A stretch of 40,864 bases of DNA from Mycobacterium sp. (GTDB taxonomy: Bacteria > Actinomycetota > Actinomycetes > Mycobacteriales > Mycobacteriaceae). The translations under genes and the position numbers were made by a program. Below the pieces are notes generated by a model. It saw only the letters and a program-made list of their open reading frames with translations, made no database searches and was not told where the DNA came from. Shown in pieces: positions 19,091-21,096 of the stretch. The stretch's first letter is position 1, and each line of letters opens with the position of its first letter. The DNA lies in assembly GCA_023264765.1 (NCBI GenBank), contig JAHFVC010000013.1, positions 1 to 40,864 on the forward strand. Reading direction: 5' to 3'.

Positions 19091-20311
19091 ATGGCCGAAT
19101 CGGTCTCACTGGACGTGGGCGGCCGGCAGGTGCCGATCAGCAATCCCGGCAAGGTGGTCTTCCCCGATGCGGGAGTGACCAAGAGGGACCTGATCGACTA
19201 CTACCTCGCCGTCGCCGGTGGCGCGCTGCGCGGGGTCGAGGACCGCCCGATGATCCTCAAGCGGTTCGTCAAGGGCATCTCCCAGGAGGCGATCTTCCAG
19301 AAGCGCGCCCCGGAGAAACGGCCGGACTGGATCGACGTCGCCGAGCTCAAGTACGCCTCCGGCACGTCGGCCAAGGAAGCCGTGCTCACCGATGCCGCCG
19401 GCTTGGTCTGGGCCATCAACCTCGGCTGCGTCGACCTGAACCCGCACCCGGTGCGGGCCGCTGACCTCGACCATCCCGACGAACTACGCGTCGATCTGGA
19501 CCCCATGCCGGGGGTCGACTGGCAGCAGATCCTGGCCGTAGCGCAGGTCGCCCGCGAGGTGCTCGACGACCACGGGCTGACGGCGTGGCCCAAGACCTCC
19601 GGGTCGCGCGGATTTCACATCTATGCCCGCATCCACCCGCACTGGCCGTTCAAGCAGGTCCGGCTGGCAGCCGAGACGGTGGCGCGGGAGGTCGAACGGC
19701 GTGTGCCCGAACTGGCCACAGCGCGCTGGTGGAAGGAAGAACGAGGCGAACGCGTCTTCGTCGACTTCAACCAGAACGCCAAGGACCGCACCGTCGCGTC
19801 GGCGTATTCGGTGCGTGCCACCCCTGATGCCCGGGTGTCCACGCCGCTGCACTGGGACGAGGTGCCACAGTGCCGAGCGGAGTCCTTCACCGTCGCGACC
19901 GTCCCCGCCCGATTCGCCGAGATCGGTGATCCGTGGGAGGGCATGGACGACGCCCCGGGCAGCCTGGAGCAGTTGCTGACGCTGGCCAAGGCGCTGGGGC
20001 CGGCCGAGAAGCCACCCAAGGGCACGGGCAAGCGCACCATGACGATGCCGCTCATCGAGATCGCCCGCAGCAAGACGCGCGATGAGGCGCTGGCGGCACT
20101 CGAGGTCTGGCGAGGCCGTCACCCGGCCGCCGCCGAGCTGCTCGCACCGGTGGACGTACTGGTCGACGGCATGCGCGGGCCGAGCTCGATCTGGTACCGG
20201 GTGCGGGTCAATCTTCAGCACGTGCCCGAGGAGATCCGCCCTCCACAGGAACCGTTGATCGCCGACTATTCGCCGTGGGCCGGTTACAGCGGCGGGCAGT
20301 TTCGACGCTGA
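19091..20311 (+). CDS. polD2: Stand-alone LigD polymerase-domain protein (PolD2 / Rv0269c-like primase-polymerase)
   Basis: LigD-Pol motifs: ELRVDLDPMPGVDW (DxD), KTSGSRGFHIYARI, VFVDFNQNAKDRTVASAYSVRATPDARVSTPLHWDEV; divergent from fadD2. Confidence 0.88.
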   Translation: MAESVSLDVGGRQVPISNPGKVVFPDAGVTKRDLIDYYLAVAGGALRGVEDRPMILKRFVKGISQEAIFQKRAPEKRPDWIDVAELKYASGTSAKEAVLTDAAGLVWAINLGCVDLNPHPVRAADLDHPDELRVDLDPMPGVDWQQILAVAQVAREVLDDHGLTAWPKTSGSRGFHIYARIHPHWPFKQVRLAAETVAREVERRVPELATARWWKEERGERVFVDFNQNAKDRTVASAYSVRATPDARVSTPLHWDEVPQCRAESFTVATVPARFAEIGDPWEGMDDAPGSLEQLLTLAKALGPAEKPPKGTGKRTMTMPLIEIARSKTRDEALAALEVWRGRHPAAAELLAPVDVLVDGMRGPSSIWYRVRVNLQHVPEEIRPPQEPLIADYSPWAGYSGGQFRR

Positions 20312-20360
20312 GCGCAAGTTGAGGCTACTCAACAGTAAGTTCACGTCAATTATTGAGGAC

Positions 20361-20377
20361 CACTCTTAGAGAGAGTG
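20361..20377. repeat. Perfect inverted repeat CACTCT-TAGAG-AGAGTG
   Basis: 6-bp arms, 5-nt loop, in AT-rich leader of the STAS gene. Confidence 0.8.
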
Positions 20378-20402
20378 AATTATGTTGCACTACAACATAA
20401 TT
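20378..20402. repeat. Perfect inverted repeat AATTATGTTG-CACTA-CAACATAATT
   Basis: 10-bp perfect arms, 5-nt loop, directly abutting the preceding IR. Confidence 0.9.
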
Positions 20403-20533
20403 GAAAACTCTCAGCAAACCCTTACGAGCGTTTCAGGCATAAGTCTTAGCAAAGTATTAATGCGTACTCCCAGGTACCTTAAATTCGACCGATAACTTCG
20501 GTGTTAGTTCCACACATCGAAGGGAGGCATTAC

Positions 20534-20974: not shown

Positions 20975-21037
20975 ATGTTGCTCGACGTTCGCTGGTTGAC
21001 CGCTCTCGTACGCCGTCACCGCAAGCACGCCCACTGA
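20975..21037 (+). CDS. Putative 20-aa basic microprotein MLLDVRWLTALVRRHRKHAH
   Basis: ATG 20975, TGA 21035-21037; preceded by GAAAGGCGGATCAC (RBS-like); between STAS gene and terminator; below the ORF-track size cutoff. Confidence 0.5.
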   Translation: MLLDVRWLTALVRRHRKHAH

Positions 21038-21051
21038 CTTCATCGTCAGAG

Positions 21052-21096
21052 AAGCCTGGCTGGCGAGTCACCCGACTCGCCGGTCAGGCTTTTTTA
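21052..21096 (+). terminator. Intrinsic (Rho-independent) terminator
   Basis: AAGCCTG-gct-GGCGAGT-caccg-like loop-ACTCGCC-ggt-CAGGCTT followed by TTTTT. Confidence 0.92.

Follow-up and report, generated by a model that had tools for sequence, protein, structure and literature searches.

Regulators of the OmpR/PhoB type, such as PhoP, bind direct repeats phased by 11 bp, in which half-sites of 7 bp are separated by a 4-bp spacer. At the smeA-sffA promoter of Streptomyces, the BldC operator is made up of four direct repeats, each offset from the last by a turn of the helix, that span roughly -60 to -10; the exact sequence of their consensus, AATTXXXX(C), is not critical (PMC5859096). As for the core promoter, transcription starts mapped in M. 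smegmatis present ANNNT at -13 to -6, A or G at +1 and C at -1, with no -35 consensus (PMC6448022).

The locus analyzed here lies in a 40,864-nucleotide stretch of DNA from Mycobacterium sp. (the window), where a 222-bp gap (20312–20533) separates a ligD-like primase-polymerase gene, whose stop codon ends at 20311, from a STAS gene. Based on the comparison of homologous loci, we propose, with a probability of about 0.83, that the conserved feature of this gap is a SigA-type promoter-operator that would act as DNA, with transcription starting near 20506.

Table 1. Observed and predicted features in the intergenic interval and downstream of it.
Feature	Position	Strand	Basis or remark
Hairpin 1, CACTCT-TAGAG-AGAGTG	20361–20377		1–3 of 6 pairs left in five relatives; private to the source species
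Hairpin 2, AATTATGTTG-CACTA-CAACATAATT, 25-bp palindrome with 10-bp arms	20378–20402		perfect only in the source species
Further operator-like copy CTCAGCAAACCCTTAC (CTYA-N7-CTTA)	20410–20425	+	35 bp upstream of the core copy; in 6 of 6 clade members
Inverted repeat TAAG-T-CTTA	20440–20448
Candidate operator, four 11-bp direct repeats with CTTA, ATTA, CTCC and CTTA	20443–20486	+	information profile, periodicity, genus-wide conservation
Single repeats of the candidate operator	20443–20453, 20454–20464, 20465–20475, 20476–20486	+
Inverted repeat AGGTACCT	20472–20479
Inverted repeat ACCGA-TAACT-TCGGT	20488–20502
Predicted -10 box TAACTT (TANNNT)	20493–20498	+	T 97%, A 100%, T 100% in 92 distinct elements
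Predicted transcription start A	20506	+	pyrimidine-purine at -1/+1; start codon here in several species
Shine-Dalgarno GGGAGG of the STAS gene	20522–20527	+	sequence
STAS-domain gene, 140 aa	20534–20956	+	Pfam STAS PF01740, E = 3e-11; relatives throughout the genus
Unannotated 20-codon ORF MLLDVRWLTALVRRHRKHAH	20975–21037	+	homologues past STAS or solo
Putative intrinsic terminator, unit end	21048–21095	+	-39.6 kcal/mol, z = -8.3, then TTTTTT within the stem

Composition and inverted repeats of the interval

The original prediction had described the interval as AT-rich and dense in inverted repeats. The first part holds in substance, with 42% G+C at 20312–20533 against 67% in the whole window, while the exact count for 20341–20460 had to be corrected from 46 to 45 of 120. 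All five inverted repeats are present where they had been placed (Table 1), and they are non-random: none of 1,000 dinucleotide-preserving shuffles reaches the longest perfect arm of 10 bp, and 2 of 1,000 have as many hairpins whose arms reach 5 or more. The AT-rich, palindrome-rich DNA is a real observation, and the stretch as a whole folds only modestly better than its shuffles (z = -1.9).

The nearest relatives are M. canariasense and Mycolicibacterium sp. J2 (STAS 96% identical), followed by M. frederiksbergense (85%) and two more (82%). Across five relatives, hairpin 2 retains 6–7 of its 10 pairs, the TAAG-CTTA stem 0–1 of 4 and the ACCGA/TCGGT stem 3–4 of 5. Hairpin 2 may be retained within the clade as an imperfect palindrome (n = 6 sequences); its perfect copy occurs once in its own genome, where the next best match has 3 mismatches. 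As judged from the alignments, the hairpins that had drawn attention are the poorly conserved part of the interval and the conserved part is its downstream half; the hairpins at 20361–20402 precede the predicted transcript and are for the most part specific to the source species.

These two hairpins could form a separate feature of the species, which would serve a different regulator as operator or the upstream ligD-like gene as a weak terminator, in keeping with their non-random, perfect 10-bp arms and their location 50–90 bp past the ligD-like stop codon. We consider this doubtful, given that the perfect stem is found in none of the five relatives, the second hairpin has no T-run after it, the terminator count of our scan is at chance level and the genome holds no close second copy of the hairpin. 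Such a feature can be compatible with the promoter-operator explanation. The hairpin at 20361–20377 had been considered as a terminator and was rejected, the scan being at chance level.

A remnant of an acquired element, with which the low G+C would agree, had also been listed. The five relatives do not bear this out: their intergenic regions are of nearly equal length (232–251 bp, 44–51% G+C) and align throughout, the neighborhood is shared and free of insertions, and no extra DNA missing from the same site in these five relatives was found. An acquired remnant is therefore extremely improbable.

The conserved element and its predicted promoter

Aligned STAS upstream regions contain an element of ~64 bp at 20443–20506, with the structure TTCTTAGCAAAGTATTA - CTCCC - CCTTAAATT - TANNNT - 7 nt - A and nearly fixed block spacings (17 bp, 11 bp, 7 nt; a one-base insertion occurs in a few species). 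Searches with a model built on sequence alone recovered it from 138 of 149 Mycobacterium genomes and gave no match in 114 genomes of the family that belong to 30 other genera. At the 100 STAS loci searched, part of which also served for training, it lies upstream of the gene in every case, and no second copy was found in its own genome. The conserved blocks CTTAGCAAAGTATTA, CTCCC, CCTTAAATT and TANNNT in the downstream half, together with a tiny ORF past STAS, had been overlooked in the original prediction. Two complete 3.3-Mb genomes of the genus (G100 and G140) have no element, which would fit a loss during genome reduction. Conservation of a ~64-bp promoter over nearly the whole genus points to a dedicated mycobacterial regulon without a name so far; literature searches with the DNA motifs found no paper, and those on the MprA-box gave nothing usable for the element.

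Mechanistically, the SigA-type -10 box TAACTT would direct transcription from A20506, giving a predicted 28-nt leader that contains the GGGAGG of the STAS gene. Of 100 loci, 95 have a pyrimidine-purine step where -1/+1 is predicted. The STAS start codon coincides exactly with the predicted +1 in L073, L078 and L133, and an ATG is also found at this position in L009, so that these mRNAs would be leaderless. The promoter could instead sit one helical turn further up, with TTA(AG)NC as -35, TAAATT (20480–20485) as -10, a start at ~20492 and TANNNT within the transcript; the 17 bp between the TTA and TANNTT blocks are indeed the best SigA spacing. This arrangement seems improbable to us, as it accounts neither for the T-A-T that is invariant in TANNNT nor for the pyrimidine-purine step at +1 and the start codons located exactly there.

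Upstream of the predicted -10 box, the conserved blocks of the promoter-operator recur every 11 bp, with lags 11, 22 and 33 standing out. Equally strong periodicity at any period from 7 to 14 was seen in 15 of 3,000 block permutations, a figure to be read knowing that the period had been noticed before testing and that a cruder periodicity test gave a weaker result. The four direct repeats suggest an operator for an oligomerising regulator. Located at -63 to -20, they would expose CTTA-like half-sites on the same side of the double helix, which would allow an oligomeric regulator (BldC-like or of the OmpR/PhoB type) to occupy neighboring sites and to control RNA polymerase; a further putative half-site pair lies 35 bp upstream in the source clade. 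The evidence favors the multi-operator promoter that had been listed among the possibilities, with the qualification that the likely operators are direct repeats and not the inverted repeats first noticed.

The same original prediction had put forward a structured RNA or riboregulator, for which a start downstream of the stems would be an adverse finding. The predicted start at 20506 is downstream of every hairpin arm, which argues against an element inside the transcript, and by that measure the RNA reading would fail, to the extent that the prediction of the start holds. An RNA would need a leader transcribed from further upstream, in which CUCCC sequesters GGGAG or in which the hairpins function as a switch. 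The non-random hairpins and the fairly good conservation of CTCCC across the genus are consistent with it, as is RNAalifold on the six close species, whose sole pairing joins CUCCC with GGGAG of the ribosome-binding site. However, this pairing comes with no compensatory change (0), CTCCC is kept also where the STAS start codon is the predicted +1 and no Shine-Dalgarno follows, and most stems are broken in relatives. The stems of the six close species keep 25–80% of their pair cells, with covariation not clearly above that of shuffles.

Wider searches gave the same picture. Rfam 15 returned no match at the gathering threshold or at E <= 10, RNAalifold found 0 consensus base pairs in alignments of 30 and of 100 homologous elements, and a search for all short stems in the 100-element alignment yielded only stems that the invariant TTA/TAA blocks form, in which few types of pair occur. 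Moreover, in 14 loci where the tiny ORF stands alone the ATG is 6–7 nt past TANNNT, a leaderless geometry into which a Shine-Dalgarno sequence would not fit, so that a long leader is excluded as the role of the element there. A cis-regulatory RNA is accordingly quite unlikely.

In the source clade, CTCCC at 20467–20471 is complementary to the Shine-Dalgarno GGGAG at 20522–20526; if transcription starts at 20506, this complementarity is probably a coincidence. A stem around CTCCC, drawn by eye on the first leaders, was dropped, since its pairing register varies among species.

The STAS protein and the tiny reading frame

Of 37 genomes sampled in the genus, 35 encode relatives of the STAS protein (E <= 1e-20). 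Rv1904 may be a relative in M. tuberculosis; a search on it yielded nothing of use. The protein shares the STAS fold family with the anti-sigma factor antagonists (SpoIIAA/RsbV family, RsfB), showing weak profile similarity to TM1442 and RsfB, but the DS(S/T/A)G phosphoacceptor motif of these antagonists is missing from it: at the phosphosite position TM1442 has MDSAG, the profile FAAEA and the window protein LSARG. It also falls short of the NCBIfam TIGR00377 cut-off (24.8 vs 53.45 bits). Taken together, both features make control by RsbW-type phosphorylation unlikely for this protein.

Past the STAS gene lies a tiny ORF, which is found at this place in most of the fast-grower-type loci that we read. 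Its homologues have 18–35 codons and consist of ML(I/L)D(V/I/L/F)RWL (here MLIDVRWL...) and a basic tail. A profile search detected them in 90 of 149 genus genomes with one match each, or about 89 given that G072 is doubtful (E = 0.007), and the strict pattern occurs only in Mycobacterium among 76 genera. Start codons interchange between ATG (63) and GTG (38), the third codon position varies most, and pN/pS is 0.31 over codons 2–12, a value biased low because the sequences were chosen by motif. The element also leads to a microprotein family for which Pfam and NCBIfam gave no significant match and literature searches found no mention of the peptide.

In other species the tiny ORF occurs alone, behind a separate copy of the promoter from which it would be transcribed, and the geometry is often leaderless. 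The element lies upstream in 23 of the 23 solo loci examined, many of which were fetched because of the element. Five of them, found via the ORF in genomes missed by the element search (G009, G032, G098, G118 and G131), each have element-like sequence upstream, some of it with weak scores.

Several solo loci (L154, L157, L227–L229, L234 and L235) are conserved further upstream, where they read ATAATGGCGTTCTGGCAAAT or, as in L228 and L235, a close variant that carries one or two changes; in this group, TTCTGG precedes TTCTTA by ~11 bp, as if it were a further repeat. In many species, the predicted start of the STAS transcript (20506–20515 and the homologous leaders, A3 columns 64–71) reads CANGTTGA, which resembles the start of the tiny ORF in solo loci, CATGTTGA. 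One of the two promoters, that of STAS or that of the solo tiny ORF, may have been derived from the other by duplication.

At the present locus, a single transcript would carry the STAS gene and the 20-codon ORF and end at the terminator. This very strong putative terminator has a stem of 22 bp, separates the tiny ORF from an acyl-CoA thioesterase-like gene in convergent orientation, and had been missed by a simple terminator scan. Tentatively, the locus could represent a genus-wide unit in which an oligomerising regulator on four phased repeats controls both a phosphosite-less STAS protein and a ~20-aa microprotein. The two products would then act in one pathway, where the microprotein might, for instance, be a partner of the STAS protein or anchor it to the membrane.

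Comparison with known promoters and operators

With mycobacterial SigA promoters and leaderless mRNAs (PMC6448022, PMC4633059), the element shares TANNNT, A or G at +1, C at -1, the absence of a -35 consensus and, in some loci, a start codon at +1. It differs from such promoters in its ~64-bp conservation across the genus and in its phased repeats.

The BldC operator of smeA-sffA (PMC5859096) shows a like arrangement of four direct repeats that recur with each turn of the helix across a promoter, whereas the CTTA-type repeats of the element are AT-rich and, compared by eye, do not clearly match AATTXXXX(C), and the controlled genes are unrelated. We do not claim the element as a BldC site, the likeness appearing to be one of layout; as to presence only, HTH_17 proteins are encoded in the genome.

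We know of no OmpR/PhoB-type consensus that the element sequence matches. The likeness to operators of this type, such as those of PhoP, lies in TTCTTAG-CAAA-GTATTAG and its 11-bp phase, a phase that by itself does not identify the family. Compared with those operators, the element stands apart in having four repeats that reach into the -10/-35 spacer.
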